IMG/VR virus record: IMGVR_UViG_3300022921_000063
Coordinates: 1-33,148 of that record
DNA from: a virus
DNA: 33,148 bases
Reading direction: 5' to 3' (one strand)
Shown: positions 13,682-33,148 of the stretch, piece after piece
Position numbering within the stretch: the first letter of the stretch is position 1
Layout of the letters: each line of letters opens with the position of its first letter
Program-made: the position numbers and the translations under genes
The notes under the pieces: model-generated
Databases searched by the model: none
What the model was told of the DNA's origin: nothing
What the model saw: the letters and a program-made list of their open reading frames with translations, nothing else

Positions 13682-16600
13682 TTAACCTAATGCTGCTATT
13701 TCGCCTGTGTTCTTAATTCTCAATGGAATGTAAATAAACTCAATTGACTTAACTGGCTCAATGGCTATATCTAAATACAACTCATTTCTATCTATTCTAG
13801 CTGTAGTGTTATTTGTTGTATCACATACAGTTACAAAGTCATACAATGCTCTTAGATTTACAAGTTCTAGTAGTAGCGCATCTGCTGCTGCTTTAACTTG
13901 TGATCTTGTTGCTGCATCGTTTGGTTCAAATAGATATGGTCTTGCAAGTATTTCTAACTGTCTACGTAAGTAAACTGTTAGTCTTGCAACGTTAACTCTG
14001 TCTAATGCACTTGCACTTCTAGCACGAGTTTTTTGTCCAAATACTAACAATCCTGCACCAGCTACTGGTGTAATTGGGTTGATGCTATTTGAATATAGTA
14101 CATCACGCTGTCCTGCATTTAGTGCAATTGAAACAAATTCTCCCTCAGCATTAATATAACCTGCTGCTGAAGCATTGCTAACTCCGCCGCGTCTTGAGCC
14201 TGCTGGAGCATACCAAGGATAAGCAACTTGGTCGTTTAATACTATTGTTCTTAGCGCCATATGCGAAGCTGGAACAACAACATTATTACCTGCGTTATCA
14301 CTTGTAAAGCCACTTGGGTAATACATGCCTAAGTATTCGTCTTTAGATACTGCACCGTCATCGTTATCTTCAACAGCTAGTGCAACGTTTGTTGCCCAGT
14401 TGTTTAGTGATGTTGCATCTGGTGTTAGTCTAAATGGTGTATCACCTACAACAAATGCTGTTAGCTTTCTGTCATAGTTTAGAGTTACCATTTCACCAAT
14501 TAGTTCAGGATAACCTGGAGTAGCCATTATATTGAATACTCTTGTTTCGTCATCTCTGATATCTTGGTTACCGTTAACCATTGCTTGTAGTGCTTGTACA
14601 ACTGACTTACGCTGTGCGTGGCGTCCAAATGTACCCGAGCCGTCTGGTTGATTTGATGAGTCAGTTACCCAACGATGTGGATAGTAGTTTGCCATACTTG
14701 CATCTGACTGACGTGGGTTAGTTTCACCTGTGTCTACATAGTTACGCTCAAAACGCTTAACGTTAAATCCGCTTCTACGTAGGTTCCATAGCAGCATACC
14801 TTTTGGATATAGTGCTGGATCCGGAGCATCTGGATCTAGATAATTGCTTGATAGCATATCTACTATATCGCCTGCTGTATGTGCTGTTGCTGTGCCGCCT
14901 GTTGTTGACCAACGTGCGTCTGCAAATAGCATTCCGTTTTCAGTAGTTTGATCTGTTTTATCAACAACCGCCCAAGAGCTTAATGTTGCATTCCAACGAT
15001 ATACAGTTGGAAAGTTTTCTAGATCTGCTGTTGAAATCCAAAGATCATTATCTACTAATGCAGTACCGTCTGATTGCTCTGTTGGAGCAGTAGCACTTAC
15101 AATTGGACCTGCTGGATCAGTTGTTGCAAATTCATTTGCGTAACCTTTCCAATCAGCACCATCATGTACCATAATGTCTATTTCGTCAATTACACTACTA
15201 TACCAAATTTCACCATCTGCTGTTAATGTGCTAGGAGCACTTACTGATGCTGAGTAAGATAATACTTTCCATAATGAAACAACATAACCATTTGATGTTC
15301 CATCTGGGTCAGCATAAAAGTTAGTAGTTGTTGTCGCATCAGTTGCATCGTAAACTGCAAAACCTGCTGCTGCAAGTGGAGTATTTGTTCCATCAACTAG
15401 TTTGATTTCACCACCTAATGCATGTGTAATAACAATTTTATTGTCAGATGTAACACTTGCTGTTACGTTTGTAAGTCCTGCTGCATTGATAGCACCTGCC
15501 ATTAAAGTTGCATCAGTTGTTGCACCTGTTGCTGTAAATGCAACACTTGCAGGAGTACTATATGCTGCACTGTTTTTTACTGTTTCAGAAATTGTAAAAT
15601 CATATGCTTGTGCAACAAATGTACTTTCTGTAATAACTGGACTTGTTGCAGTTGCAGCGCCGTTACCCGCTCTAGCAAAAATTTTGTAATCAACAATAGG
15701 TCTTGCTGCTTCAGTTATGTTAACTTTTACATATACGTCACCTAGAGTTAAATTTGCACCACCGCCTGTTTTATCTAACCAATATATTGCTGTTGCATTA
15801 GATGTATAAAGTGGAGCAGATACACTTGACCATAGTCCTGTATCTGTGCTATATTTCTTAACTGAGAAGTTTGCACCGCCGTTTGGATTAGTTGTTTTTA
15901 ACCAAACAGAGCCAGTTGGACGTGGAGATGTATCACTCGACTTCCATTCTGGAACACTTGTGTGGGCTGCGGTTGCTACTGCTGGAATTGCATATGTACC
16001 TGCTACTAGTCCAGCTGCTGCTAGATCCATTGTACCTGCTGCAATAACTACAGTGCCAGCAGATGTGTTAGCAGTTCTATCTGCATATATGTATATCTTT
16101 CCGCTTACTAGCGATGCTGTTACACCAGTAATTGTTGCGCCGTTAATATCACTTACTAAATCTGCAAGAGTATTACCTGATGCTGTAATTGTAGTACTGT
16201 TAATTAGTAGAGTCTCACCGCCAGTAAATGAACCTACTGGTGCAATACTTGAAACTGTAGGCCATGCTGTTTCCCAATCTGTTGAACCAACCTGAACCCA
16301 AGTTCCGCCTGTTTTCTTATACCAAACATTGTTTGAAGTATTAAGTGTAACTACTGCATAATCACCTACTGCACCTACTGCTGCTGATGGTGCTAAAGGA
16401 TTTGTTCCTGTTGCAGTGTCAGATGCCTCAGTAATTACTAAAGGTGTAACTGAGCTAAAACTCTGGCCGCCTGTAGTATTAACTGCATTGCCATTCCATT
16501 CTAGTAAACCAAACACAGTATTTGTTGTATCAAACCAACTTGCACCATCTGTTGGCTTACCTGCTGGAGCTGTTGCACTTGCTTCTAGTTTGCCTAGGTC

Positions 16601-16942
16601 AAAGTCTGCTCTTGCTACATAAACTTGGTTTGTAATTCCTAGTAATGAGTATGCTGCTTGTAGTCCATATTCGTTTAATTCACCACCGTGAATCATATTT
16701 CCGTTTGCGTCTGAGTAGAATGTAGGATCTCCAAATAAATCTCCTAAATCTTTTTGACTTGTTAACAGGTACGGTTTACCTGCATTTGCTTTTGTTGTTC
16801 CTGCTGCTACGGCTGTCCCTGCAGAATTTGTTTTATCTTCTGCCGAAGCAACAAATATCATTGGTACGGTACCAGGAGCAGCTGGAGTGTAAAAACTCTC
16901 ATCAATTACCTGAACCTCAACACCTGGTGATACTAATGCCAT
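13682..16942 (-). CDS. 18: gp18, tail sheath protein with large insertion
   Basis: 1,086 aa versus 659 in T4. It forms the contractile sheath around the tube. The N-terminus MALVSPGVEVQVIDESF and the C-terminal half (ALYPKGMLLWNLRRSGFNVKRFERNY, RRGGVSNASAAGYINAEGEF, VFGQKTRARSASALDRVNVARLTVYLRRQLE, FIYIPLRI) are clear sheath blocks. Between residues about 125 and 665 lies a Thr/Ala/Gly-rich insertion absent from T4. It contains GD-W type motifs (for example TGSVWLKT, DGEIWYSS, NDLWIST) and two Flagellin_IN-like segments (about 242-320 and 463-535). The ATG at 16942 is preferred over one at 16945 because AGGAG is then seven bases away. It has a late octamer upstream and a hairpin downstream. 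Confidence 0.93.
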   Translation of the reverse strand: MALVSPGVEVQVIDESFYTPAAPGTVPMIFVASAEDKTNSAGTAVAAGTTKANAGKPYLLTSQKDLGDLFGDPTFYSDANGNMIHGGELNEYGLQAAYSLLGITNQVYVARADFDLGKLEASATAPAGKPTDGASWFDTTNTVFGLLEWNGNAVNTTGGQSFSSVTPLVITEASDTATGTNPLAPSAAVGAVGDYAVVTLNTSNNVWYKKTGGTWVQVGSTDWETAWPTVSSIAPVGSFTGGETLLINSTTITASGNTLADLVSDINGATITGVTASLVSGKIYIYADRTANTSAGTVVIAAGTMDLAAAGLVAGTYAIPAVATAAHTSVPEWKSSDTSPRPTGSVWLKTTNPNGGANFSVKKYSTDTGLWSSVSAPLYTSNATAIYWLDKTGGGANLTLGDVYVKVNITEAARPIVDYKIFARAGNGAATATSPVITESTFVAQAYDFTISETVKNSAAYSTPASVAFTATGATTDATLMAGAINAAGLTNVTASVTSDNKIVITHALGGEIKLVDGTNTPLAAAGFAVYDATDATTTTNFYADPDGTSNGYVVSLWKVLSYSASVSAPSTLTADGEIWYSSVIDEIDIMVHDGADWKGYANEFATTDPAGPIVSATAPTEQSDGTALVDNDLWISTADLENFPTVYRWNATLSSWAVVDKTDQTTENGMLFADARWSTTGGTATAHTAGDIVDMLSSNYLDPDAPDPALYPKGMLLWNLRRSGFNVKRFERNYVDTGETNPRQSDASMANYYPHRWVTDSSNQPDGSGTFGRHAQRKSVVQALQAMVNGNQDIRDDETRVFNIMATPGYPELIGEMVTLNYDRKLTAFVVGDTPFRLTPDATSLNNWATNVALAVEDNDDGAVSKDEYLGMYYPSGFTSDNAGNNVVVPASHMALRTIVLNDQVAYPWYAPAGSRRGGVSNASAAGYINAEGEFVSIALNAGQRDVLYSNSINPITPVAGAGLLVFGQKTRARSASALDRVNVARLTVYLRRQLEILARPYLFEPNDAATRSQVKAAADALLLELVNLRALYDFVTVCDTTNNTTARIDRNELYLDIAIEPVKSIEFIYIPLRIKNTGEIAALG
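14951..16573 (-). repeat. Repeat-bearing insertion in the sheath protein
   Basis: Approximate limits of the non-T4 part of gp18 (residues 125-665). Two copies (about 15986-16222 and 15341-15559) share the pattern hydrophobic strand, TLADLVSDINGA or TLMAGAINAAG, VTAS, a K-I strand and LAAAG. Four or five short W-motifs flank them. Confidence 0.6.
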
Positions 16943-16973
16943 CATATTTCTCCTAAAGGTTTAATTACTATAG

Positions 16974-17036: not shown

Positions 17037-17044
17037 GATAAATA
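17037..17044 (+). promoter_or_regulatory. T4-like late promoter octamer GATAAATA, HNH gene
   Basis: GATAAATACAATATG, with four bases between octamer and ATG and no Shine-Dalgarno in range (AAAGG is about 18 bases upstream). Confidence 0.65.
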
Positions 17045-17048
17045 CAAT

Positions 17049-17384
17049 ATGAGACCTTTATGCATATGTAAACAACGCCCTGCTGCTATAAATTATAAAA
17101 AGAATGGTAAAACATTTTATAGACGCAAATGCGAACAATGTTTAAAACACGGACTCGGACACGGTATTCCAAGATGGCAGATAGCAGGATATGAAAAAAA
17201 GAACATATGCGAAAAATGCGGATACAAGAGTGTTTATCAAGAACAGTTTGACGTTTACCATATGGATGGTAATTTGGAAAATTGTCGACCTAGTAATCTA
17301 AAAACCGTATGTGCTAATTGTCAACGTATTGTTCAGAAGATAGATGTAAAATGGAAACAAGGTGATTTAAAGCCTGACTTTTAG
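17049..17384 (+). CDS. HNH-like zinc-binding protein
   Basis: 111 aa. Two zinc-finger-like sets are visible: C5-x-C7 with C28-x2-C31, and C54-x2-C57 with C88-x2-C91. Between the latter is FDVYHMDGNLENCRPSNLKTVC, the usual layout of an HNH nuclease beta-beta-alpha core (H71, N83, Cys zinc knuckle). I recognise the whole as a conserved protein of T4-like marine phages, standing alone and not in an intron, so it may be a structural-metal DNA-binding protein or a nuclease rather than a homing enzyme. The second His of the HNH triad is not obvious. It is carried on the plus strand from a late octamer four bases before its ATG. Confidence 0.7.
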   Translation: MRPLCICKQRPAAINYKKNGKTFYRRKCEQCLKHGLGHGIPRWQIAGYEKKNICEKCGYKSVYQEQFDVYHMDGNLENCRPSNLKTVCANCQRIVQKIDVKWKQGDLKPDF

Positions 17385-17385
17385 G

Positions 17386-17414
17386 TTGACATCGAATAAC
17401 AAATACGTTATAAT
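17386..17414 (+). promoter_or_regulatory. Consensus sigma70 promoter for the DUF3310-like gene
   Basis: TTGACA (17386-17391), a 17-base spacer, TATAAT (17409-17414): both boxes match the bacterial consensus exactly. The -35 box begins just after the HNH stop codon. It predicts early expression of a single small gene inside the late region. Confidence 0.85.
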
Positions 17415-17442
17415 TAATATTATTAAAACAAACGGAGCACCC

Positions 17443-17772
17443 ATGGGACTAACAAAAGTAACATCAGATTTGTATTTAAATGATAATGAAAAATCAGCGT
17501 CTATTGATTACAAATTTGACGAAAAAAAGTATATTGAAGAGTTTCAAGAATATATCGATAAAACATATAACGGACATTACAGCACAAATAAATTTCAGTC
17601 AACTGAAGTAATCATTGACAGAGGAAACGGAACTGGTTTCTGTATGGGTAATGTTGATAAGTATTCAAACCGTTACGGTAAAAAAGGTACAGCATCAGAT
17701 GCTCGCAAAGATTTAATGAAAATTTTACACTATGCTCTAATTCAATTGTATGTACACGATAACGATCTTTAA
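17443..17772 (+). CDS. DUF3310-like small protein
   Basis: 109 aa from the ATG at 17443, which has GGAG six bases upstream and a perfect sigma70 promoter 29 bases upstream; a TTG at 17386 would lie inside that promoter and is rejected. The C-terminal half FCMGNVDKYSNRYGKKGTASDARKDLMKILHYALIQLYV follows the DUF3310 pattern (GN-x-x-KY-x-x-RYGKK, then a D-L-x-K-x-x-x-Y helix), a short family common in phages and sometimes labelled nucleotide-kinase-like, with no firm function. The N-terminal half resembles nothing I know. Its stop shares TTAA with the convergent gp13 gene. Confidence 0.68.
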   Translation: MGLTKVTSDLYLNDNEKSASIDYKFDEKKYIEEFQEYIDKTYNGHYSTNKFQSTEVIIDRGNGTGFCMGNVDKYSNRYGKKGTASDARKDLMKILHYALIQLYVHDNDL

Positions 17773-18527
17773 CCTATTAGGAAACTATAACCTGCGCCGC
17801 CTGCTACTTGTTGTATAACTTCCTGTTCTAGCTTATCCATTTCAGTTTGTGCTTCTGCCTTAAGTGTGTCACCATTAAGAGTACTTCCACCTTGAGGCCC
17901 AGCAATAGTAGCAAACTTTGAACGTGCTTCGCCTAACATATATTTACAACTAGCAAGTGTATAATCTTTAATCCATTGTTTTGCTAGATAATCGTCAAGT
18001 AACTGTTCATCTGGACGATAATTATAGCAATACAACATTAACGTTTCGGTTGATCTAGGACGCTGTAATAGCGTTAATTTTTTAGTCGAAGTATTCCATT
18101 TAAACTCAATAAACGAACCAAACATTCTACCTACTAGTTCTTGGTATTGGCTAAACATATCGTATGTTGCTAATCCGCCTAAATTTGAACTAGACATTAG
18201 ATATGTATTTGTATATGCTAAATTAAACGGTTCGTATATTGATCCACCATCTCCGCCGCCAGTACGTGAACCAATTGATCTACGAAATAACTTACGCACT
18301 TCAATTACTTCACTTGGTAGCGTATATTCATTAGTGTCTACAATTGTAGGCATAAACATATAAGATTCTTCAACTGAATTGTCTGAGCGCTGTCTAAAAC
18401 GTGTTAATGCCTTTGTTAAAGCAGTTTCGTAATGTATTGGGTCAAGTTCAACATCAATCATGCCTCCGCCTAAAAATGCGTTAACATAATCAAATACCTC
18501 TTGCTTTTTTGTTTTTAAACTACTCAT
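17769..18527 (-). CDS. 13: gp13-like neck protein
   Basis: 252 aa versus 309 in T4. In T4, gp13 and gp14 form the neck that closes the head and joins it to the tail. The sequence follows the marine T4-like form: an N-terminal helix (KKQEVFDYVNAFLGG), DPIHYETALTKALTRFRQRSDNSVEESYMFM, the beta strand YTLPSEVIEVRKLFRRS, LQRPRSTETLMLYCYNYRPDEQLLDDYLAKQWIKDYTLASCKYMLGEARSKFATIAGPQGGSTLNGDTL, and an end EQEVIQQVAGGAGYSFLIG. GGAG lies seven bases before the ATG. A late octamer is located 18 bases upstream, back to back with the gp14 promoter, which supports paired neck-gene expression. Confidence 0.75.
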   Translation of the reverse strand: MSSLKTKKQEVFDYVNAFLGGGMIDVELDPIHYETALTKALTRFRQRSDNSVEESYMFMPTIVDTNEYTLPSEVIEVRKLFRRSIGSRTGGGDGGSIYEPFNLAYTNTYLMSSSNLGGLATYDMFSQYQELVGRMFGSFIEFKWNTSTKKLTLLQRPRSTETLMLYCYNYRPDEQLLDDYLAKQWIKDYTLASCKYMLGEARSKFATIAGPQGGSTLNGDTLKAEAQTEMDKLEQEVIQQVAGGAGYSFLIG

Positions 18528-18544: not shown

Positions 18545-18552
18545 TATTTATC
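18545..18552 (-). promoter_or_regulatory. T4-like late promoter octamer GATAAATA, gp13
   Basis: Minus-strand half of an inverted repeat (arms 18545-18555 and 18567-18577, 11 bp each, perfect) that contains two divergent late octamers. Confidence 0.65.
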
Positions 18553-18569: not shown

Positions 18570-18577
18570 GATAAATA
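18570..18577 (+). promoter_or_regulatory. T4-like late promoter octamer GATAAATA, gp14
   Basis: Plus-strand half of the same palindrome. The gp14 ATG at 18583 starts five bases after the octamer, without a Shine-Dalgarno sequence. Confidence 0.65.
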
Positions 18578-18582
18578 TGTAT

Positions 18583-19734
18583 ATGCCAAAGTTATCTTTA
18601 TATAGACCCGAACGCGGTAATGATTATGAATTTATTGACAGACAAATTCTAGAAATGTTTACTGTTGGGGGTACCGACATTCATATCCATAAATATCTTG
18701 GATCAAACAATTTACCTGAGGGTGAAGCAGATGCAGTACAGCCTCAATACGATGCTGTAAAGGAAACTAACATACAGGATTTGTTATTTCTTGAAAACAG
18801 AGATCGTAAATATGATCCAGATGTATACACGCACAGAGCAATTTATAATGTACAAGACATTGATTTTGATTTGAGTCAATTTGGATTGTTCCTGTCAAAT
18901 GATACATTGTTTATGACCGTGCATATTAGAAGTATTGTAAAAACAATAGGTCGTAAACCGTTAAGTGGTGATGTTATTGAGTTACCACATTTAAAAGACG
19001 AGTATGCACTAAACGATTATGATATTGCATTAAAACGGTTTTATGTAATAGAAGATGTAAGTAGAGGTTCAGAAGGATTTAGTCATACATGGTATCCACA
19101 TTTATATAGATTAAAACTAAAACAAATATACGACGGTCAGGAATACAGTGAGATATTAGATCTACCTGCTAATGAAGAAGAACCAGGTAGCAATACTTTA
19201 CGTGACTTGCTTTCTACTTATGAAAAAGAAATGCAGATAAACAACGCAGTAATTGCTCAAGCAGAAGTTGAAGCGCCATTAAGTGGATATGAAACTAGTC
19301 ATTTTTACACAATAGCACGTAATGCTGACGGAACTGCTGACTTACAGCAAATAGAAAATCCTAACGGCGGCGGAAACATTACTACAAGTGGACCTCCAGA
19401 AAAAGACGGATACTCTGGTTATCTTGTTGATTATGGTGACGGTGAAACACCTAACGGTAGTGCGTTTGGTAGCGGAATATCATTTCCAGGATCAAACGAT
19501 TCTGGAGACTATTTTTTAAGAACAGATTATATGCCTAATAGATTATTTAGATTTGACGGAACTAGGTGGATTAAGGTTGAAGATAACTTACGTGAAACAC
19601 TTACAAATTCAAATACAAGATCTACGCTGAAAGCAGGATTTATTAATAATAGTGCAAATAACACAATAGGTGGCGATACTATACCCGAGCGTCAATCTGT
19701 TAGTAAAGCTCTAAAACCAAAGGCAGATAATTAA
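18583..19734 (+). CDS. 14: gp14-like neck protein
   Basis: 383 aa versus 256 in T4. Residues 1-205 match the neck protein form: GGTDIHIHKYLG, a block with NIQDLLFLENRDRKYD, DFDLSQFGLFLSNDTLFMTVHIRSIVKTIGRKPLSGDVIELPH and KRFYVIEDVSRGSEGFSHTWYPHLYRLKLKQI. The C-terminal extension holds GDYFLRTDYMPNRLFRFDGTRWIKVED and ends with SVSKALKPKADN, a tail also seen in T4-like cyanophage gp14. The first ATG (18577) overlaps the late octamer itself, so the second ATG at 18583 (MPKLS) is chosen. Its stop overlaps the gp15 start by one base (TAATG), implying coupled translation. Confidence 0.78.
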   Translation: MPKLSLYRPERGNDYEFIDRQILEMFTVGGTDIHIHKYLGSNNLPEGEADAVQPQYDAVKETNIQDLLFLENRDRKYDPDVYTHRAIYNVQDIDFDLSQFGLFLSNDTLFMTVHIRSIVKTIGRKPLSGDVIELPHLKDEYALNDYDIALKRFYVIEDVSRGSEGFSHTWYPHLYRLKLKQIYDGQEYSEILDLPANEEEPGSNTLRDLLSTYEKEMQINNAVIAQAEVEAPLSGYETSHFYTIARNADGTADLQQIENPNGGGNITTSGPPEKDGYSGYLVDYGDGETPNGSAFGSGISFPGSNDSGDYFLRTDYMPNRLFRFDGTRWIKVEDNLRETLTNSNTRSTLKAGFINNSANNTIGGDTIPERQSVSKALKPKADN

Positions 19735-23637: not shown

Positions 23638-26600
23638 TTATTCTGAGTCCTTTTTAAATTCAATCTCAAGTCTGTCTACATCTTTACGTTCACCGTAAAC
23701 TGTATAGAAACAATCAATTGCATCAATATCTGCCCCTGCAATATTAATATACACTTTGCCATCTTCTATCTTCTCAACATATAATTGCTGGAAGCCGAGG
23801 TTTGCTGTTAAGTTAACTGTAATTGACTCTTCATGTACTAGTGCTGTCCAATAGTCAGGTAGTTCAATTACATTTTCACCTTTTAGTTTACCTCTTACAT
23901 ATACACCATTTTCTGGACCCTCGAGTGATGCATATCTTAATTTATGATCTTCCTTAGTTGGGTGATCAATTACGAAGTTTTTAGTTACAGCAGTAAGTGA
24001 GTCTGCTACAACATCTCTAGTAAAGTAACCATCTCTCCATCTTAGACCGTTAGTACCTAAGTCTAAAGTACCACCTGTACCAGCTGCTGGCATAACGTTA
24101 TTAATAATGTTTGATAGTAGATGATTGTTTACTCTTGCAGTTGTGAAGTATAAATTTGTACCTTCACTTAATGCTGTTGTTGAATGATTAGAAATATCAT
24201 TTACTGTACCAGATACATTACCAGTCAAGTCTCCTGAGAAGCCAGCGTTACCAGTTATAACACCATCTGCTTCAATTGTACCAGTAGCATCAATATTTTG
24301 GAAGTTTGATGTACCACTTGCGTGGTTAACTCTACCAGTTAATGTACCTGTAAAGTCGGCTTCAACTGTACCAGCCACAAGCGTTTCACCGCCTAGTGAC
24401 CATTTATCAGCAGTTTCATCCCAACTAAAGAATTTGTTAGAGTTAGTTCCTCTATCAATTTCAATACCTGCTGTTTCGCCTGCGTGTGGCGTACTTCCTG
24501 ACGGAACTGCATTAAGTAGTATAAAGTTATCAGAGAACGCTATCTGTTCTGATTCTAGTGAAGTTATATTGCCTGAAACTGTTAAACTATTTGTAATTTC
24601 AACAGTACCAAACGACAACGAACCTGCAACAGTTAAGTCACCATCAACATCAACATCGTTAAACGTAACATTATCTGTTGTACCAACTGGTTGTCCTATA
24701 CTTATTGCACCGCCTGAAAATGTTACACCAGTACTTCCTGTAATATGTGCTCTTACTTCTGATGCACTTGGGCCTGTATAAGTAAACACACCACTTGTAC
24801 TATTATAAGTAAGACCGCCGTCGCCGCCTGTATCAGTAACACTAACAGATGCTCTTGCTCTTGCATCGGTATAATATAAATTAGAACCTTCTGATAAGTC
24901 AGTTGTTGAGTGATTTGTAATGCTACTTACTGTACCAGTAACATCACCTACTATATCACCAGTTACATCACCAGTTAATGGACCATAGAATCTTGTGTCT
25001 GCGGTAATTGTTGTACCAGTTATTTCAGCTCTAGATGTACCGCCAATAATTGTTCCGTCAATATTACCACCATTCACATCAATTGTTGTGAACGTTGAAG
25101 TGCCAGTTGATGTTATGTTACCTGTAACATTACCAGTTACATCACCAGTTACATCACCAATAAAGTTTGCTGCTGCAAAGTCTTCAGACCCAACACTCCA
25201 TCTGCCGCCGGATGACGTAGTCCATTCTAATGACTTAGTTGTTCCACCTGATAAATCAACTTCTAAACCAGCATTTTGTGCTGTGCTAGTACCACTGTTT
25301 AGTAGAATATAATTGTCAGCAAGTTTAATTTCTTCAGTATTAAGAGATGTAGTAGTGCCGTTTACAGTCATATCTCCTGTTACAGTTAAGTTTTGATTGA
25401 CTGTCATATTATCAATTGCAAACGTACCGTTAACTGTTAGTGTATCACCGACTGGAATTGTTACATTACCTGTTACATCGCCTGTTACATCGCCTGTGAT
25501 ATTACCATTAAATGTACTTGCATTAATAGTAGTACCACTAATAGTAGTACCTGTAATTAAGTTCGGAGATGCGCCGCCAATAACAACACCGTCAATTGTA
25601 CCGCCGTTAATGTCTGCACTTGATAGTGTAGCATTAGATGCATCAACTGTACTAAAGTGCGCTGTGCTTCTGTCTGATGCGCCGCCGATCGCGCCGCTCA
25701 TTGTACCTGTAAATGTACCAGTATGATCGCCATCTGCGTCACCAGTTAAGTCACCTGTGAATAGAGGTGCTGTCATTGATGTAGTTGCAACAACTGTTGC
25801 ACCATTTATCGATCCTGTTGCTGTGACGTTAGTGTCTGTAGTAATTGCTCCAGTTGCGTCAAGTGTACTAAACTTACCAGTGCCTCTAGATGCGTTACCT
25901 ATCGAAACTCCATCAATCGAGCCACCGTCTATGTTTACAGTTGATGACGCTAATGTTGTAATAGTAATAGAATCAATAGTACCACCGTTAATTGCATTAC
26001 CACTGATTTGATCGTTAGCAAAAGTTATTGTACCTGCACTAACATCGATAGTTTCGCCGCCTGCAATTGTTACATCACCGTAGTGATGTCCTGTTACATC
26101 ACTTTCTACCATACCGGCTACAAGTGTTTCGCTTGCTATAGACCATTTGTCATTTGATTCATCCCAGAAGAACGAAACATCAGTAGCTCCACGCTCAATT
26201 GTTATACCTGCATTTTGTACTGTACCTAGTGCATTTAGTTTAATAAAGTCAGTGTTAAAGTTAGCAGTAGACTCAGCAGTAAATGTTCCTGGAACAGTAA
26301 TATCTGCAAATGTAGTAGTTCCGTTAACGTCTAGGTCTCCGTTGATCGTTGCTGTTTGACCTGATGCAACAGAAAGTCCTGCATTAAATACTGCATTACC
26401 ACTGAATACTGCTGCACCCAGTGTACTTGTGCCAGTTGCGCTTAGATTACCAGCAAATGTTGGCGCTGTAACGATTCCAGTAGCACTTATAGCTGATGCA
26501 TAAATATCATTTCTAGTTGCCGGAGCACCTAACTCACCAAGTAATACTGTTGAAGTTAAACTAGTTAGTCCTGTAAATGCTGTTACAGTTGTGCCTAAAT

Positions 26601-29600
26601 CTACTTCAGTTGCGCCTATAATTACTGAATCATTTACAAGTTTATCATTAGTAATAGAACCTGCTAACATTACATTTTCAACTGATCCGTTTTGGATAAC
26701 TGTTGTAATTGCTGCTGTATCGCCTGCATTTGTAAAGGTTGCAGTACCTGCTACATCTCCTGCTAATGTAACAGTTACAGCACTTGACAATGCATCTGCA
26801 TCATCTGCTGTACCTGTAAGATCACCAACTAGGTTAAATGCTGCGTTGTTTACTGTAGCACCATTAAGATCAACTGTACCACTAAATGTACTTGTACCTG
26901 ACGATGTAATGTTACCTGTTACATCGCCTGTTATATCACCTATAAATTGACTGCCGGCAGTTGCAACAAAGTCTCTGTTAAATTCCCATTTGCTGTTTGA
27001 TCCAACTATAATATGTGGTCTACCTGAAAGACTGTCTGCTCCTACATAAATACCCGAACCAAGCAAATTGCTCATTGAAGACTCAGCATTATCAATTTTA
27101 ATTGCTGCACTTGTAGTTGCAAAGTCGCCTGTATGGTCAATATCGCCTGTAATAGTTACATTGCCTGTTGTTTCAAGAGTTGTAAATTTACCTGTATTAG
27201 GAGTTACATTACCAATTGGTGTGCTTTGAATTCCGCCGGTTGATATAATTGTTCCATTAACAGATAGATCCTCACCTACACGTAAATCAGTATTTTGTGT
27301 TTCCCATCTATCTTGACTTTCTACCCATACAAATCTTACAGTATTTTCATCACCTCTAAGAACTTGTATACCTTGCTGTCCGCTTGTTAACGGAGCACCA
27401 GATGTATAATCTGAATTAAGTGTAATAACATCATCTTCAACATTAACTTGACTTACAAATGTTGCTGCACCGGTAACATCCAATGTTCCTAATAAACTTG
27501 TACCTGCTTGTACATCAAGTGTTTGAATATCAGCACTAGTATCTATTTCAACAATTTCAAATGTGCTTGTACCTGAACTTGTTACATCACCTGTTAATGC
27601 ACCTGCAAAGTTTGTTGCTGCTGTAATAACACCACCAGTAATTGGTCCTGTTCCTGTAGTTCCGCTAGTTATACTTGTGTTACCAGTTATAGTTGTAAAT
27701 GTACCAGATACTGGTGTTGTTGCACCTATAACTACATTGTCCATATTACCTGAACTTGCATCAATGTCTACAATACCGTCTACGTTTAGTGTATCGCCTG
27801 CTTCTACTGTTACGTCACCTGTTACATGTCCATCAACTGGACCTACAAATTGGCTGGCTGTAATTGTTGTACCAGTAACTGTTGACGGAACATTATTGCC
27901 TATCACAGTACCGTCTATATTACCACCATTTATGTCAACATTGCCAAGTGTTGCAACGCCTCCATTAACAGTTAAACTTGTACCAACTGTAACAGTTCCG
28001 GTTGTATCTAATGTTGTAAACTTACCTGTGTCTCTTGAAGTTTCACCAATTTTACCAGTAACGTTACCAACTAATGCACCTTGGAAATCTGTTGTTGCAA
28101 TAAAGCTAGTTGCTGTAAAGTTTTTATTACCAACTGTCCAAGTATTTGTGCCGTTGTTCCATAGTAGGCTTGTTGATGTACCGTTTTGGTCAATTTCAAT
28201 ACCTGATGTAAATGCGCCACTTGACAGTCCTGAATATCCTGTATTCAGTACAATTGTGTTATCTGCCAGTGTAATATTATCAGTATCAAGTGTTGTAGTT
28301 GTGCCATTAACTGTAAGGTCGCCATTAACTGTTAAGTCTGTTCCTATTACGGCTGTTGATGTAACATTCAATGTGTTTGGTAAGAATGTACCTTGTACAG
28401 TTAAGTCATTAAACGTAGCATTTCTACTATTGTCAATTACAGTGTTGGCACCAAATATAATACTTCCGCTTGCTACAGTTAAGTCACCTTGTAGATCTAA
28501 ATCATGTAGTGTAGATGTTCCTACTGTACCACCTGACGGTGCAGTAATGTTACCTACAAACCCTGTAGATGCTGTAATTGTTGTACCTTCTACATCTAAG
28601 AAGTCTGCGTTATCAGGTGTAGCACCACCTATACGTGTTCCGTCTATTGCGCCGCCGTTAATATCAACAGTACTAAATGTTGATGTTGCAGAGTTAACAG
28701 TAAGTGAGCCGCCAACTACAACATTACTATCAGTATTTACAGTTGTAAATTCACCTGAGTTTCTATTTGCAATTCCGCCTGCGCCAACTGTGCCAACTAA
28801 AGCACCTTGTACCGGACCAACAAATTGTCCTGCACTTACTGTGCCACTTACGCCTGCACCGCCTGTTATAACAAGTGTACCTGTTGTAGTTGAGTTAGAT
28901 GCTGTGCCTGCTGTAAGAGTTACTGCACCACTTGCTGCTAGTGTTGTTACTGTTGCAGCCGCTGCTGTATTAGCACCTAATATACCATCTAAGTTTGTTG
29001 CATTAACTGATTTTGCTGTATGATTAAGTATTACACTTGCATCACTTGCGAGCACATCACCTGTTAAATCTCCAGTAAATCCTGTTGTTGCTTCGATAGT
29101 CGTACCTTCTAATGCAAGAAATGTACCTGCTGCTGGTGTTGCACCACCGATTACAGTACCGTCTATATTACCACCATTAATGTCAATTGTATCAAATGTA
29201 CCATCTTCGGATGTAATATCTTTAATATTGTCTAATGTTCTGTCTGCTGCATTTACAAGTGTAACACCTGCTGCAAATGCACCGTCAGCAGTAGATTGTA
29301 CATTACCCCTTGTAATGCCGTCTAATCTAGTGTTAGCAGTAATAAGCGAACCTGTTATGTCGCCTGCACTAAATGCACCAAATGTATCTCTAAATACTAT
29401 TGTACTTGCTGTGTTAGTTGAAACTGCATTTGATATTACTTGATAAGCTATATCGTGTCCCTGTGTTCCAGTAATCGACAAACCATTGCCACTTACAGTT
29501 ACAGTTCTTGCATAATCGCCTGTTGTATCTGCAACAATATCTACACTGTTAGGTTGTATTGTTGTATTAATAGTTACATTTGAAGTACCATCGAATCCGA

Positions 29601-32600
29601 TACTACCAGCAACATCGCCAGCTAACGCAATTGTTCGTGTTGTTTCTAATTTATCTGCTCTATCTGCTAGACCAGTTAAGTCACCAGTAATATCACCTAC
29701 AAAACCAGTTGTTGCTGTGATTGTAGTACCACGTACAGTTGCGGCTGTTGTTGCACCTACTGTAGTACCATCAATGGCACCACCGTTAATGTCAACAGTT
29801 GTAAATGTTGAAGTACCAGTTGAAGTTACATTGCCTGTTACGTTACCTGTTAAGTTACCACTAAAGCCTGAGTTAGAAGTAATAGTTGTACCAGTTATAG
29901 CAGCAGGTGAGTTAGAACCTATAACAGTGCCGTCAATAGTACCACCGTTAATATCAACTGTAGTAAACGATGATGATCCAGATGATGTTATGTTACCAGT
30001 TACATTACCAGTTACATCAGCAGTTACAGTTGGGGCAGTAATTGTACTAGTAGCTTCAAATGTACCTGCTGTAAATTTCTCAGTACTTACTGTCCAGGTT
30101 GATCCGCCTTCGTCCCAGTTAAGTCTTTTAGATGGAGAACTACCTCTGCTTACTTCAATACCTGCTGTTAGTGAATTGGCCGGTACACCTGTTGCAGCTT
30201 GATTAACTTGTAATAGAGTTGTGTCAAATTGTGCAGTGCCGCCAACAGTTAAGTTGCCGCCTATGTCTGCATCAGTAGTAACATTAAGAGCGTTAGGAAC
30301 AAAGTTACCAACTACACTTAAATCTCTAAACGTTGCAGTACTTGTTGAACCTGTGTTAGTAATATTTCCGTTTACAGTTAAATTTGTAAATGAACTTGTT
30401 CCTGATGCAGCAACAATGTTTCCTCTAAATTCTGTGTCTGCTTCAATAACTAAACCAGTTATGTTTGCAGGATCGTTACCACCTATTACTGTACCGTCTA
30501 TCTCGCCGCCGCTTACATCTATACCGTCAAATGTAGATGTACCAGTTGATGTAACGTTACCAGTAATATTTCCGACAAAGTTAGTTTCTGCTGTGATTAC
30601 TGTACCTCTAATAACATCTGCTGTAGCAGCACTTGCGCCGCCTATTGGAGTAGTATTAATTGTACCGCCAGTAATTGCAACGTTACCACTTGTTACAGAA
30701 CCACTAATGTCACCTGTAATTAGACCACTAACACCGATATTATCAGCTTCTATTGTAACTCTGCTTGATGTAGTGCCTAAAGTAGTTCCAGTAATAGTAC
30801 CGCTTGTTGCGTTAATTGTACCACCAACATGTAAATTGCCGCCCATATGTATATTACCAGATAGACCAATCCCACCTAGTATCTTAATAGCGCCGTTAGT
30901 TGTTCCAGTCGAGTCTATTGAACTTGTAACATTCATTACACCGGTAATAGTTGATGTATCTATAGTTGTTAGACCTGTTATACCTAATGTACCAGCAACT
31001 AATGTGTTACCTGATCCTGGTTGTACAGTAAAGTTACTACTACCTACATTAAGTATACCTGCAATATCAGTGTTACCATTTGCACCTGTTACAACAAAGT
31101 TTCCTGAACCAACATTTAAGTTTGTACCATTTACAGCAAGTATTCCGCCTACTGTTGTGTTTCCGCTTGTAGTTACACTTGCAACATCTACTGCTTTAGT
31201 TGTCTGGTTAATTAATACAGCACTATCACTTGCATGTAAGTCACCTCTAAACGCTCCTGCAACAAATGTTTCCGAGCCAACTGTCCATTCACCGGCAGTA
31301 TTAGCCCATTTTAGTTCTTTTGTAGTACCAGATAAATCTATTTCAATTCCTGCATCCGCTGCTGCTTGTCCCGAGTTCAATGTAATGATATTATCTGCTA
31401 TAGCAACAGTTTGTGCATTTACAGTTGTAAACTCTCCTTCTACAGTTAAATCACCTGCAATAGTAACATTCTCTGATACATTTAAATTTTCTAAAAACGC
31501 ATCAGCAAATCTTGTAGTTGTACTACCTATATCTGCATTTAATGTACCTGCTTTTAAGTAAAAGCCTTTTGTTAGTACAGAGTTAATTTCTAATTCATCA
31601 GATACAGCATTACCTATTCTTGTAATACTACCGTAAAGATTAGCATCACCTGCAATGTCTAAATTACCATCTGCACTAATTCCGCCTGTTGCGCCATCTA
31701 GTGTGATTACAGTAGACACACCGTCACTTAGTGTAATATCTCCAGAGCTTGTAATTAATAGATTATTATCAATATTTGTTTGACCGTCTATAAAGACACT
31801 ACCAAAACCATCTCCTGATACAGTAAATGCACCACTATCAACATTAATGCCACCATTTAGACTTGCTAAGCCACCTGCTGTTATTGTTGAATTTGTTGCA
31901 ATAGCACCACTGGTTGCGTTAATACTACCTACACTTGCACCTATTGTTAAATTATTAGATAAAGTAACCGGACCATTTAAGTTAGTTTGTCCTGAGAAAG
32001 TACTTGTTCCTGGAGCAGTAATGTTTCCTAAGAAAGTTGATCCAGTTACAGTACCGTTTGTAGTTATACTACCAGTTACGCTTAATATACCACCTGTTGG
32101 GTTAAATGTAAATGCACTCGAACCTGTAATTAACCCAGCACTTCCTGTAACTGGTATTTCGTTAACATTTAAAGTTTCTATATAAGCATTATCAGCAAAT
32201 ACATTTCCTGCAATATCTACATTGCCCGATACATCAATGCTGCCTGTTACATCGAGTAAACTACCGCTAAATGTTAGGTTTGAACTATCAGCAACTTCAC
32301 CTGATGATTGGCCGAGCAATACAGCATTAACTGTAGTTAAGTCTGACACACGTAACGATGCTACTGTTGCACTTGTATTTACATTTAATGTACCGGCAAT
32401 AATTGTATTTCCGTTTCCAGCGTCTATAGTAACTACGTTAGTTCCTATAGTAACATCACCACCTACATCAAGTGTACCTTCGGTATCTATATTACCAGTA
32501 CCTGCTTGTACACTAAATGCTTCTGCTGTATTACCTGTATTTCTTACTTCAATGCCGCCGTCTGCACTTAATGTACTACTTAAAGTTGTAGCACCTGTTA

Positions 32601-33148
32601 CAGATAAAGTGCCACTTGTAGCAATACTACCAGTACCATCTGCTACAGTAAACACGCCGCTGTCTGCTGTAATACCACCATTAAGTGTAGTTAACCCGCC
32701 AACTGTTAACGGACCGCTTGCAATATTTGTTGCACCTGTAGATGCTGTTACAGTAAACTGGTTGTTAATGTTAAAGTTGCCGTCTGCTGTAAGAGTTCCA
32801 TCAATTTGTGTATTACCTGTTGCGGCAGTTACTACAAAATTTCCGTTAACACTAAAGTCGTCTGTTACTGTTAGTCCTTCTGTTACACCTAATGCGCCGG
32901 TGATATTTAAGTCATGTACAGTGGTTGTACCAGTTACATCTAATGTACCTACTATATTAGTATTACCTGTACCAAGTGCAACACTAAATGCTTCAGCAGT
33001 ATTAGCAGTATTTCTTACCTGGATGCCTCCGTCTGCGCTTAACATGCCGCCTATTTCAGTTACACCACTTGCTCCTGTTACGGTAAAATCAGAACCTACT
33101 GATAAAGTTGTGCCAGTAATAGAAGTTGTACCTAATGTGCTTGTACCA
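23638..33148 (-). CDS. Giant modular tail-fibre protein, 5'-truncated by window edge
   Basis: The frame is open to the right edge: codons continue upstream of the first in-window ATG (33045) as GTSTLGTTSITGTTLSVG and onwards, so at least 3,169 residues are present and the true start lies outside. Nearly the whole protein is Thr/Gly/Ala/Asn/Val-rich with repeated short beta motifs (TLSVTGATTLS, VTGNVTGNITSSG, INGGTIDGTVIG). Seven copies of a W-bearing module lie at intervals. The C-terminal 120 residues form a different domain (NFVIDHPTKEDHKLRYASLEGPENGVYVRGK, LPDYWTALVHEESITVNL) known from marine phage fibre tips. It precedes the 683 aa fibre gene with TAA-ATG abutment. A long tail fibre for host recognition is the likely role. 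Confidence 0.88.
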   Translation of the reverse strand, partial: GTSTLGTTSITGTTLSVGSDFTVTGASGVTEIGGMLSADGGIQVRNTANTAEAFSVALGTGNTNIVGTLDVTGTTTVHDLNITGALGVTEGLTVTDDFSVNGNFVVTAATGNTQIDGTLTADGNFNINNQFTVTASTGATNIASGPLTVGGLTTLNGGITADSGVFTVADGTGSIATSGTLSVTGATTLSSTLSADGGIEVRNTGNTAEAFSVQAGTGNIDTEGTLDVGGDVTIGTNVVTIDAGNGNTIIAGTLNVNTSATVASLRVSDLTTVNAVLLGQSSGEVADSSNLTFSGSLLDVTGSIDVSGNVDIAGNVFADNAYIETLNVNEIPVTGSAGLITGSSAFTFNPTGGILSVTGSITTNGTVTGSTFLGNITAPGTSTFSGQTNLNGPVTLSNNLTIGASVGSINATSGAIATNSTITAGGLASLNGGINVDSGAFTVSGDGFGSVFIDGQTNIDNNLLITSSGDITLSDGVSTVITLDGATGGISADGNLDIAGDANLYGSITRIGNAVSDELEINSVLTKGFYLKAGTLNADIGSTTTRFADAFLENLNVSENVTIAGDLTVEGEFTTVNAQTVAIADNIITLNSGQAAADAGIEIDLSGTTKELKWANTAGEWTVGSETFVAGAFRGDLHASDSAVLINQTTKAVDVASVTTSGNTTVGGILAVNGTNLNVGSGNFVVTGANGNTDIAGILNVGSSNFTVQPGSGNTLVAGTLGITGLTTIDTSTITGVMNVTSSIDSTGTTNGAIKILGGIGLSGNIHMGGNLHVGGTINATSGTITGTTLGTTSSRVTIEADNIGVSGLITGDISGSVTSGNVAITGGTINTTPIGGASAATADVIRGTVITAETNFVGNITGNVTSTGTSTFDGIDVSGGEIDGTVIGGNDPANITGLVIEADTEFRGNIVAASGTSSFTNLTVNGNITNTGSTSTATFRDLSVVGNFVPNALNVTTDADIGGNLTVGGTAQFDTTLLQVNQAATGVPANSLTAGIEVSRGSSPSKRLNWDEGGSTWTVSTEKFTAGTFEATSTITAPTVTADVTGNVTGNITSSGSSSFTTVDINGGTIDGTVIGSNSPAAITGTTITSNSGFSGNLTGNVTGNVTSTGTSTFTTVDINGGAIDGTTVGATTAATVRGTTITATTGFVGDITGDLTGLADRADKLETTRTIALAGDVAGSIGFDGTSNVTINTTIQPNSVDIVADTTGDYARTVTVSGNGLSITGTQGHDIAYQVISNAVSTNTASTIVFRDTFGAFSAGDITGSLITANTRLDGITRGNVQSTADGAFAAGVTLVNAADRTLDNIKDITSEDGTFDTIDINGGNIDGTVIGGATPAAGTFLALEGTTIEATTGFTGDLTGDVLASDASVILNHTAKSVNATNLDGILGANTAAAATVTTLAASGAVTLTAGTASNSTTTGTLVITGGAGVSGTVSAGQFVGPVQGALVGTVGAGGIANRNSGEFTTVNTDSNVVVGGSLTVNSATSTFSTVDINGGAIDGTRIGGATPDNADFLDVEGTTITASTGFVGNITAPSGGTVGTSTLHDLDLQGDLTVASGSIIFGANTVIDNSRNATFNDLTVQGTFLPNTLNVTSTAVIGTDLTVNGDLTVNGTTTTLDTDNITLADNTIVLNTGYSGLSSGAFTSGIEIDQNGTSTSLLWNNGTNTWTVGNKNFTATSFIATTDFQGALVGNVTGKIGETSRDTGKFTTLDTTGTVTVGTSLTVNGGVATLGNVDINGGNIDGTVIGNNVPSTVTGTTITASQFVGPVDGHVTGDVTVEAGDTLNVDGIVDIDASSGNMDNVVIGATTPVSGTFTTITGNTSITSGTTGTGPITGGVITAATNFAGALTGDVTSSGTSTFEIVEIDTSADIQTLDVQAGTSLLGTLDVTGAATFVSQVNVEDDVITLNSDYTSGAPLTSGQQGIQVLRGDENTVRFVWVESQDRWETQNTDLRVGEDLSVNGTIISTGGIQSTPIGNVTPNTGKFTTLETTGNVTITGDIDHTGDFATTSAAIKIDNAESSMSNLLGSGIYVGADSLSGRPHIIVGSNSKWEFNRDFVATAGSQFIGDITGDVTGNITSSGTSTFSGTVDLNGATVNNAAFNLVGDLTGTADDADALSSAVTVTLAGDVAGTATFTNAGDTAAITTVIQNGSVENVMLAGSITNDKLVNDSVIIGATEVDLGTTVTAFTGLTSLTSTVLLGELGAPATRNDIYASAISATGIVTAPTFAGNLSATGTSTLGAAVFSGNAVFNAGLSVASGQTATINGDLDVNGTTTFADITVPGTFTAESTANFNTDFIKLNALGTVQNAGITIERGATDVSFFWDESNDKWSIASETLVAGMVESDVTGHHYGDVTIAGGETIDVSAGTITFANDQISGNAINGGTIDSITITTLASSTVNIDGGSIDGVSIGNASRGTGKFSTLDATGAITTDTNVTATGSINGATVVATTSMTAPLFTGDLTGDADGDHTGTFTGTMSGAIGGASDRSTAHFSTVDASNATLSSADINGGTIDGVVIGGASPNLITGTTISGTTINASTFNGNITGDVTGDVTGNVTIPVGDTLTVNGTFAIDNMTVNQNLTVTGDMTVNGTTTSLNTEEIKLADNYILLNSGTSTAQNAGLEVDLSGGTTKSLEWTTSSGGRWSVGSEDFAAANFIGDVTGDVTGNVTGNITSTGTSTFTTIDVNGGNIDGTIIGGTSRAEITGTTITADTRFYGPLTGDVTGDIVGDVTGTVSSITNHSTTDLSEGSNLYYTDARARASVSVTDTGGDGGLTYNSTSGVFTYTGPSASEVRAHITGSTGVTFSGGAISIGQPVGTTDNVTFNDVDVDGDLTVAGSLSFGTVEITNSLTVSGNITSLESEQIAFSDNFILLNAVPSGSTPHAGETAGIEIDRGTNSNKFFSWDETADKWSLGGETLVAGTVEADFTGTLTGRVNHASGTSNFQNIDATGTIEADGVITGNAGFSGDLTGNVSGTVNDISNHSTTALSEGTNLYFTTARVNNHLLSNIINNVMPAAGTGGTLDLGTNGLRWRDGYFTRDVVADSLTAVTKNFVIDHPTKEDHKLRYASLEGPENGVYVRGKLKGENVIELPDYWTALVHEESITVNLTANLGFQQLYVEKIEDGKVYINIAGADIDAIDCFYTVYGERKDVDRLEIEFKKDSE
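24381..31353 (-). repeat. Seven-copy module AGIE-D-RG...W...W in the giant fibre
   Basis: Approximate copies on the minus strand: 31261-31353, 30070-30172, 28115-28210, 27281-27377, 26121-26211, 25171-25275, 24381-24471. Each reads roughly GI-E-D/R-G ... F/L-W-x-E/G ... W-S/T-V/I-G-x-E, and most are preceded by an ADN-I-LN-G strand. Spacing varies from about 0.8 to 1.9 kb. An eighth copy lies in the 683 aa fibre (about 22711-22812). Confidence 0.8.
25040..30690 (-). repeat. Interspersed INGG-IDGT-IG repeat in the giant fibre
   Basis: At least ten copies of the coding repeat for (D/I)-x-NGG-x-IDGT-x-IG, for example near 25048, 25590, 25910, 27908, 28634, 29154, 29763, 29925, 30487 and 30648. 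The nucleotide form is a T/A-rich run such as ccgtcaat-taccaccgtt. Spacing is irregular, from about 160 to 2,000 bases. Confidence 0.75.

Follow-up and report, generated by a model that had tools for sequence, protein, structure and literature searches.

A DUF3310 gene with a conserved sigma70-type promoter at a site where it alternates with nucleotide kinase-type genes in T4-type jumbo-phage relatives

Why does a small gene carry a consensus sigma70-type promoter of its own in the midst of phage late genes? The question is raised by a stretch of viral DNA of 33,148 nucleotides (the window), whose 33 kb contain T4-type late genes for the gp18 tail sheath, the tail tube, the gp13 neck protein, the sheath stabiliser and the terminase, together with genes for a UvsX-like protein and a single-strand-binding protein. 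Two plus-strand genes lie between gp18 and gp13, an HNH-like gene followed by a gene for a 109-aa DUF3310 protein. The features of this interval are as follows.

13682–16945, minus strand: gp18 tail sheath gene, far boundary of the gp18–gp13 interval (phrog_10581, E 2.3e-231)
17037–17044, plus strand: late octamer GATAAATA upstream of the HNH gene (sequence)
17049–17384, plus strand: HNH endonuclease-like gene beside the slot (weak HNH PHROGs; HNH_3 at E 1.6e-4, under the curated cut-off)
17386–17414, plus strand: sigma70-type promoter TTGACA-17-TATAAT, predicted to be early (sequence, conservation in relatives)
17421–17442, plus strand: putative short 5' leader with a predicted start point at about 17421 and a GGAG ribosome-binding site at 17434–17437 (sequence)
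17443–17772, plus strand: DUF3310 gene (109 aa), suggested to substitute for a dNMP kinase gene (PF11753, phrog_480, phrog_236)
17769–18527, minus strand: gp13 neck protein gene (head-tail adaptor Ad2), convergent, boundary of the slot (phrog_211, E 7.6e-33)
18059–18075, plus strand: terminator-like stem inside gp13, on its antisense strand (terminator scan)
18545–18552, minus strand: late octamer GATAAATA upstream of gp13 (sequence)

The promoter and its late surroundings

The -35 hexamer TTGACA (17386–17391) and the -10 hexamer TATAAT (17409–17414) are separated by a 17-nt spacer and agree with the consensus at 12/12 positions, confirming the exact promoter that the initial annotation had placed upstream of a DUF3310-like gene. 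The -35 element begins one base past the HNH stop codon (17382–17384), and 28 nt lie between the end of the -10 element and the DUF3310 ATG. The TTG start given for this gene in the list of open reading frames falls inside the -35 box; the start codon is ATG 17443 instead. At a spacing of 15–19 nt, this is the sole exact TTGACA/TATAAT match in the 33 kb window. Since 5/100 dinucleotide shuffles of the window also reach one exact match, the match alone is only moderately surprising; the promoter is regarded as real because it is conserved in relatives.

The gene had also been described as ending against gp13, and its stop codon indeed overlaps that of the convergent gp13 gene, with 4 bp in common. 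That the promoter would drive only this gene agrees with the annotation. The stem at 18059–18075 might form the end of the DUF3310 transcript; no stem was found at this position in the other loci scanned, and a terminator candidate of any kind was found only in the window and in L026 (2/22 loci). A late octamer of its own precedes the HNH gene, which many relatives have and some lack; the gene might help cassettes to be exchanged, and its PADLOC matches correspond to HNH parts only. Elsewhere in the window, a minus-strand open frame with repeated-looking motifs (23638–33148, at least 3,135 aa) runs past the window edge and perhaps encodes a virion fibre protein.

Besides the octamers preceding HNH and gp13, AATAAATA lies upstream of gp18 (16981–16974), and a further late octamer (18570–18577) overlaps the first possible ATG of a plus-strand gene at 18577. 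The initial annotation had ascribed late octamers to all neighbours; directly ahead of the operon genes at 19734 and 21155, no octamer was found. Among distinct upstream regions of relatives, the octamer NATAAATA is found before gp13 (59/60), gp19 (17/21), gp18 (18/62), HNH (10/53) and the 18577 gene (5/62). It occurs in 0/29 distinct upstream regions of DUF3310, an absence that is weak evidence because the 75-bp upstream regions of many late genes also lack the octamer. Furthermore, transcription from the HNH octamer at 17037 could read through into DUF3310.

Conservation and class of the promoter

A DUF3310 probe of viral contigs identified 368 relatives, and the best 80 loci were kept. Window and loci together comprise 63 in which gp18 or gp13 lies near DUF3310 (syntenic) and 18 in which the gene lies elsewhere; collapsing identical upstream regions left 29 and 7 distinct ones, respectively, where distinct regions do not equal independent events. 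Among these best 80 of 368, a site scoring at least 10/12 is present in 26/29 distinct syntenic upstream regions, at least 11/12 in 18/29 and 12/12 in 4/29. The corresponding dinucleotide-shuffle rates per 75 bp are 5.2%, 0.45% and 0.02%, and a mononucleotide null gives similar values. The pairing of promoter and gene, which the initial annotation had suggested looking for in relatives, is thus recovered, and its description of a sigma70-type promoter that serves a single gene in a late region stands, the site being conserved together with the gene.

The upstream region of DUF3310 in L030 scores 9/12, and in L058 (11/12) and L071 (10/12) a deoxynucleotidase gene (NT5C, PF06941) has been inserted ahead of DUF3310, with the promoter in front of the inserted gene. 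Across 19 distinct promoter strings with a spacing of 17, TTGAC as well as A at position 2 and T at position 6 of the -10 element are invariant, and every spacer column varies. In its hexamers, their spacing within 16–18 nt and its conservation in relatives, the site conforms to what is expected of a sigma70-type early promoter. The same score of at least 10/12 is reached in the 75-bp control regions upstream of gp18 in 0/62, of gp13 in 0/60, of the genes at 18577 and 19734 in 0/62 and 0/61, of a second tail-tube-like gene in 0/3, of gp19 in 1/21, of HNH in 1/53 and of a nudix gene in 4/38; an 11/12 site occurs in none of these distinct upstream regions of neighbouring genes. The promoter is kept in several DUF3310 loci that have no HNH gene. 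It is also kept in five loci where minus-strand genes, some of them methyltransferase-like by eye, lie between DUF3310 and gp13 (L025, L026, L030, L036, L049).

Within 75 bp, 0/7 distinct non-syntenic DUF3310 upstream regions reach 10/12. Longer upstream stretches contain a 10/12 site before the DUF3310 genes of HTVC008M and syn9, and in phage C48C1 an 11/12 site lies about 110 bp before the DUF3310 match; the longer stretch before the Melnitz-3 gene yielded no promoter site. As such sites also precede the HTVC008M, syn9 and C48C1 genes, the association of the promoter with DUF3310 is not wholly confined to the slot.

Clues to timing come from the 109.9 kb contig G001, which contains locus L003 and whose proteins are 100% identical to those of the window over the 10.3 kb compared. 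Three exact promoters with a spacing of 16–18 are present in this contig: before DUF3310, before the gene for the late sigma factor gp55 (phrog_12791, E 7.6e-81) and before gp47, which is followed by gp46. Exact promoter sites occur in 6/15 contigs searched. The gp55 gene is held by 4/22 contigs, where its promoter scores at least 11/12 and that of gp47 at least 10/12. Because the other exact copies found in the same phage precede gp55 and gp47, genes whose action is expected ahead of late transcription, the DUF3310 promoter likely belongs to an early class, and early expression of DUF3310 is the likely consequence of this shared promoter type. Expression from promoters of the gp55/gp47 class may not be confined to the early phase, since 2/4 gp55 upstream regions (L211, L212) hold a late-type octamer near the -10 element.

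In L115 (5445–7336), gp55 adjoins baseplate wedge and virion structural genes, making it a second gene with such a promoter among structural genes. In the window itself, a 10/12 sigma70 site (5028–5000, minus strand) overlaps a GATAAATA octamer before the gene for a gp32-like single-strand-binding protein, which is followed by the UvsX-like gene; the overlap may place the gp32-like gene under dual control. Given this site, DUF3310 may not be the sole non-structural gene of the window to be expressed before the late phase.

Alternating occupants of the slot

Searching from the other side of the locus, a gp13 probe gave at least 596 confirmed loci, the best 80 of which were kept. DUF3310 occupies the slot in 19 of these, a gene type termed kinA in 33, a type termed kinB in 22 and a further gene in one (L144), while 5 loci are cut off. 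All 75 classable gp13 loci are therefore limited to four occupant types, each kinase-like or DUF3310-like, and DUF3310 occurs together with kinA or kinB at no locus of either probe set (best 80 each). The kinB product is a dNMP kinase (DNMK, PF21448, E 3.9e-17). The best match of kinA is phrog_38514, a family with no assigned function, and no Pfam match was found at E 0.01; its kinase-like label rests on a P-loop motif and on a C-terminal match to the deoxynucleoside monophosphate kinase family phrog_139 (E 6.9e-9). The L144 occupant is a 79-aa, distantly DUF3310-like protein encoded on the minus strand behind a 12/12 promoter. It shows weak matches to the nucleotide-kinase PHROGs to which DUF3310 is also related (phrog_4897, kinase, E 3.3e-5; phrog_4472, nucleotide kinase, E 0.0022), and its only Pfam match is unrelated and below the cut-off.

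The kinA- and kinB-type genes are encoded on the minus strand and follow gp13 downstream, in some loci after intervening genes. Their upstream regions (55 loci, 36 distinct) all contain a sigma70 site of their own on the strand opposite to the DUF3310 promoter: 36/36 reach at least 10/12, 35 at least 11/12 and 25 score 12/12. The late octamer was found in 0/36 of them, and none of the distinct kinase loci listed has a 10/12 site after HNH in the direction of DUF3310. Conversely, 17 of the 19 DUF3310 loci from the gp13 probe have the promoter after HNH; the other two are L123, whose sequence begins 2 bases before the match, and L139, which begins inside an NT5C gene directly before DUF3310. Such an NT5C deoxynucleotidase gene directly precedes DUF3310 in 12 loci (L058, L059, L071, L125–L131, L134 and the cut L139), with L058 and L131 representing the same contig. 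Except in L139, NT5C and DUF3310 form a two-gene unit behind one promoter in all NT5C loci.

Promoter and gene change together at the slot. Outside the slot, L140 (kinA) and L141 (DUF3310) can be aligned, at 78% over the stretch from the sheath gene through the HNH stop codon and at 80% over the one that starts about 40 bp into gp13; the sequences between did not align. The two loci thus differ by promoter and gene as one block, which bears on the question raised earlier of whether the pair moves as a unit. A quick gp13 tree (73 rows) implies 14 changes of occupant, a figure to be read against the short protein and the 29/70 inner branches drawn open; starred branches alone require at least 2 changes for DUF3310, at least 3 for kinA and at least 2 for kinB. 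DNMK and kinA were found in 0/12 contigs of the DUF3310 class. Similarly, DUF3310 was found in 0/10 gp13-probe contigs by a search that matched in 15/15 DUF3310 contigs. Nine of those ten contigs have a slot kinase; the tenth, L142, is cut off at the slot and carries near the contig end the same 12/12 promoter as L144. As the contigs are fragments or not known to be complete, this mutual absence applies to the contigs searched and not to whole genomes.

By gp13 and gp55, jumbo phages such as PA5oct (44% and 46% identity, respectively) are among the nearest isolates. Of eight isolate annotations covered, seven (PA5oct, 121Q, Munch, GAP32, RaK2, Hallingskeid and XaC1) have the order gp13, dNMP kinase, tail sheath, some with an extra gene between, and in the eighth, Phosso, several genes separate gp13 from the dNMP kinase. 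Among the matches listed, the kinase lies downstream of gp13 on the same strand within 400 bp in 30/41 records, within 5 kb in 9 and elsewhere in 2. These 41 records are found in both the gp13 and the kinase 60-row lists, excluding four RefSeq duplicates and PP728206 (partial gp13), and 14/60 gp13 rows have no counterpart among the kinase rows listed. The seven isolates share with the window, where this role is predicted, a nucleotide-metabolism gene among structural genes, at the same position between gp13 and gp18. They differ in that the gene encodes a P-loop kinase on the strand of gp13 and has no near-consensus sigma70 site in the 110 bp upstream: at least 11/12 is reached in 0/7, with one 10/12 site in 121Q. 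Early control of the slot is therefore not general, and a private early-type promoter seems to characterise the group of marine giant-phage relatives to which the window belongs. By parsimony, the kinase is the likelier older occupant. In one record, the PA5oct slot kinase (L214, 7746–8387) is labelled a structural protein, and it carries an ESI-MS/MS note.

Function of the DUF3310 protein and rival readings

The DUF3310 assignment of the initial annotation is borne out, as the window protein matches PF11753 with 36 bits (E 7.4e-9), above the curated cut-off of 24. It also matches phrog_480 (E 1.5e-26) and phrog_236, annotated as nucleotide kinase (E 2.6e-6), and 832 phage records match the protein. 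A DUF3310 domain is likewise found in T7 gp1.7 (E 4.5e-23; PF11753 at residues 122–184), which, according to a paper citing Tran 2010 (PMC12846349), phosphorylates dGMP and dTMP. Both proteins lack the motif G....GK. T7 gp1.7 differs in its length of 196 aa, of which about 120 at the N terminus fall outside the domain, and its gene lies between 1.6 and 1.8. An hhalign comparison of the two covers 36 columns only (E 1.3e-6); since the match is confined to the C-terminal part of gp1.7, kinase activity may need parts that the window protein lacks. The window protein has neither G....GK nor a match to the P-loop dNMP kinase family (DNMK, PF21448), so it holds the position of that family without being a member. 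An AlphaFold2 model (15 rows) consists of helices only at a mean pLDDT of 57.9, too weak for a fold search, and no PDB relative was found by sequence up to E 1.

Homologous DUF3310 proteins (46–57% identity to that of the window) are encoded by syn9, the Pelagibacter phage HTVC008M and the Methylophilales phage Melnitz-3, which differ in that the gene stands directly before the gp45 sliding clamp gene. A gp45 protein query matched in 3/15 contigs, namely the three with DUF3310 outside the slot; the PF02916 sliding-clamp profile was uninformative (0 matches, controls included), and a CobS query, run without a positive control, matched in 0/15 contigs. As DUF3310 elsewhere adjoins the sliding clamp gene or sits in other places, slot and gene are not tied to each other. 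T4 gene 1 is positioned among late genes and to our knowledge contains no DUF3310; for the lactococcal SaV gene, we know of no such slot. Like the window gene, SaV has a DUF3310 domain; it is described as early transcribed and differs in being known for toxicity in L. lactis and E. coli and for its involvement in AbiV sensitivity (PMC8306868). T4 gene 1 encodes the dNMP kinase of a T4-type phage (PMC2993671; for further background, see PMC9004378 and PMC2988020). No title on a slot between gp18 and gp13 was found among the matches listed from the open-access literature, and the parts covered of PMC12753301 have nothing on the DUF3310 gene.

Taken together, the best reading is a slot for early nucleotide kinases whose non-homologous occupants can replace one another. 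We consider it probable, by a modest measure, that the gp18–gp13 site supplies a DNA-precursor enzyme early in infection and that DUF3310 serves DNA-precursor supply there. A fixed site in T4-type jumbo-phage relatives would house the gene of such an enzyme, and because it sits among late genes, the occupant would come with a private near-consensus sigma70 promoter. In the window this occupant would be DUF3310 on the plus strand and in many relatives a P-loop dNMP kinase or kinase-like gene on the minus strand, each with its own promoter and presumably equivalent in function. Host RNA polymerase would read the slot gene soon after DNA entry, and the DUF3310 protein would phosphorylate deoxynucleoside monophosphates before replication starts, as reported for dGMP and dTMP with T7 gp1.7. 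A DNA-precursor role is favoured by the history of the slot, the deoxynucleotidase neighbour, the domain shared with gp1.7 and the sliding-clamp neighbourhood of homologues. As the isolates hold a dNMP kinase at this position and the DUF3310 domain is common to gp1.7, DUF3310, as a stand-alone early gene of predicted activity, probably replaces a dNMP kinase. More tentatively, and with a chance we place a little below even, DUF3310 may be a P-loop-free nucleoside-monophosphate kinase that, at a single fixed site, displaced the older P-loop dNMP kinase of T4-type jumbo phages more than once, with gene and private early promoter exchanged each time as a cassette whose strand can flip.

The initial annotation had proposed a host-takeover or anti-defence role, in which the DUF3310 protein, produced immediately, would block or divert a process of the host, a function that the discoverers of SaV suggested for that protein. 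The strong early-type promoter agrees with such a role, as do the accounts of SaV cited above, and DUF3310 proteins of four mycobacteriophages are all reported as highly toxic when over-produced (PMC9339283, PMC10700055, PMC11373665, PMC11797047). Owing to this reported toxicity, takeover stays a live rival. Over-production toxicity would, however, also fit a nucleotide enzyme, and no match for the protein was found in a library of defence (not counter-defence) proteins. Kinase-type genes with the same kind of promoter alternate with DUF3310 at this site, some DUF3310 genes there follow NT5C and the isolates hold a dNMP kinase there. Because the gene in the slot varies among unrelated families suggestive of DNA-precursor metabolism, DUF3310 is likelier to feed DNA synthesis than to fight defences, and we regard takeover as unlikely.

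The HNH gene that borders the slot in many relatives suggests another explanation, namely an insertion hotspot in which any small promoter-bearing gene could settle, the metabolic theme reflecting chance or lineage history. Other genes between the occupant and gp13 at some loci would fit this explanation, but a hotspot of this kind accords poorly with the restriction of all 75 classable loci to four kinase-like or DUF3310-like types. Moreover, several DUF3310 loci keep the promoter without HNH, and the annotations of 121Q, Munch, GAP32, Hallingskeid and XaC1 show no HNH gene next to the kinase, RaK2 having a homing-endonuclease-like gene there; a hotspot thus appears decidedly improbable. Finally, the convergent overlap, together with the finding of no terminator common to relatives between DUF3310 and gp13, would allow the promoter to yield mainly antisense RNA over the gp13 3' end, holding gp13 down early. 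This seems very remote, as the promoter of kinase loci points away from gp13 and, at the loci where minus-strand genes separate DUF3310 from gp13, the promoter is kept nonetheless.

DUF3310 is common in phages, toxic to hosts in several reports and filed without an assigned function. Under the DNA-precursor reading, the alternation of the slot with dNMP kinase-type genes would explain the early-type promoter of DUF3310 without counter-defence and gives a direct, testable prediction of its activity. It would also mean that an enzyme gene situated among late genes retains an early-type promoter even as both its family and its strand change.
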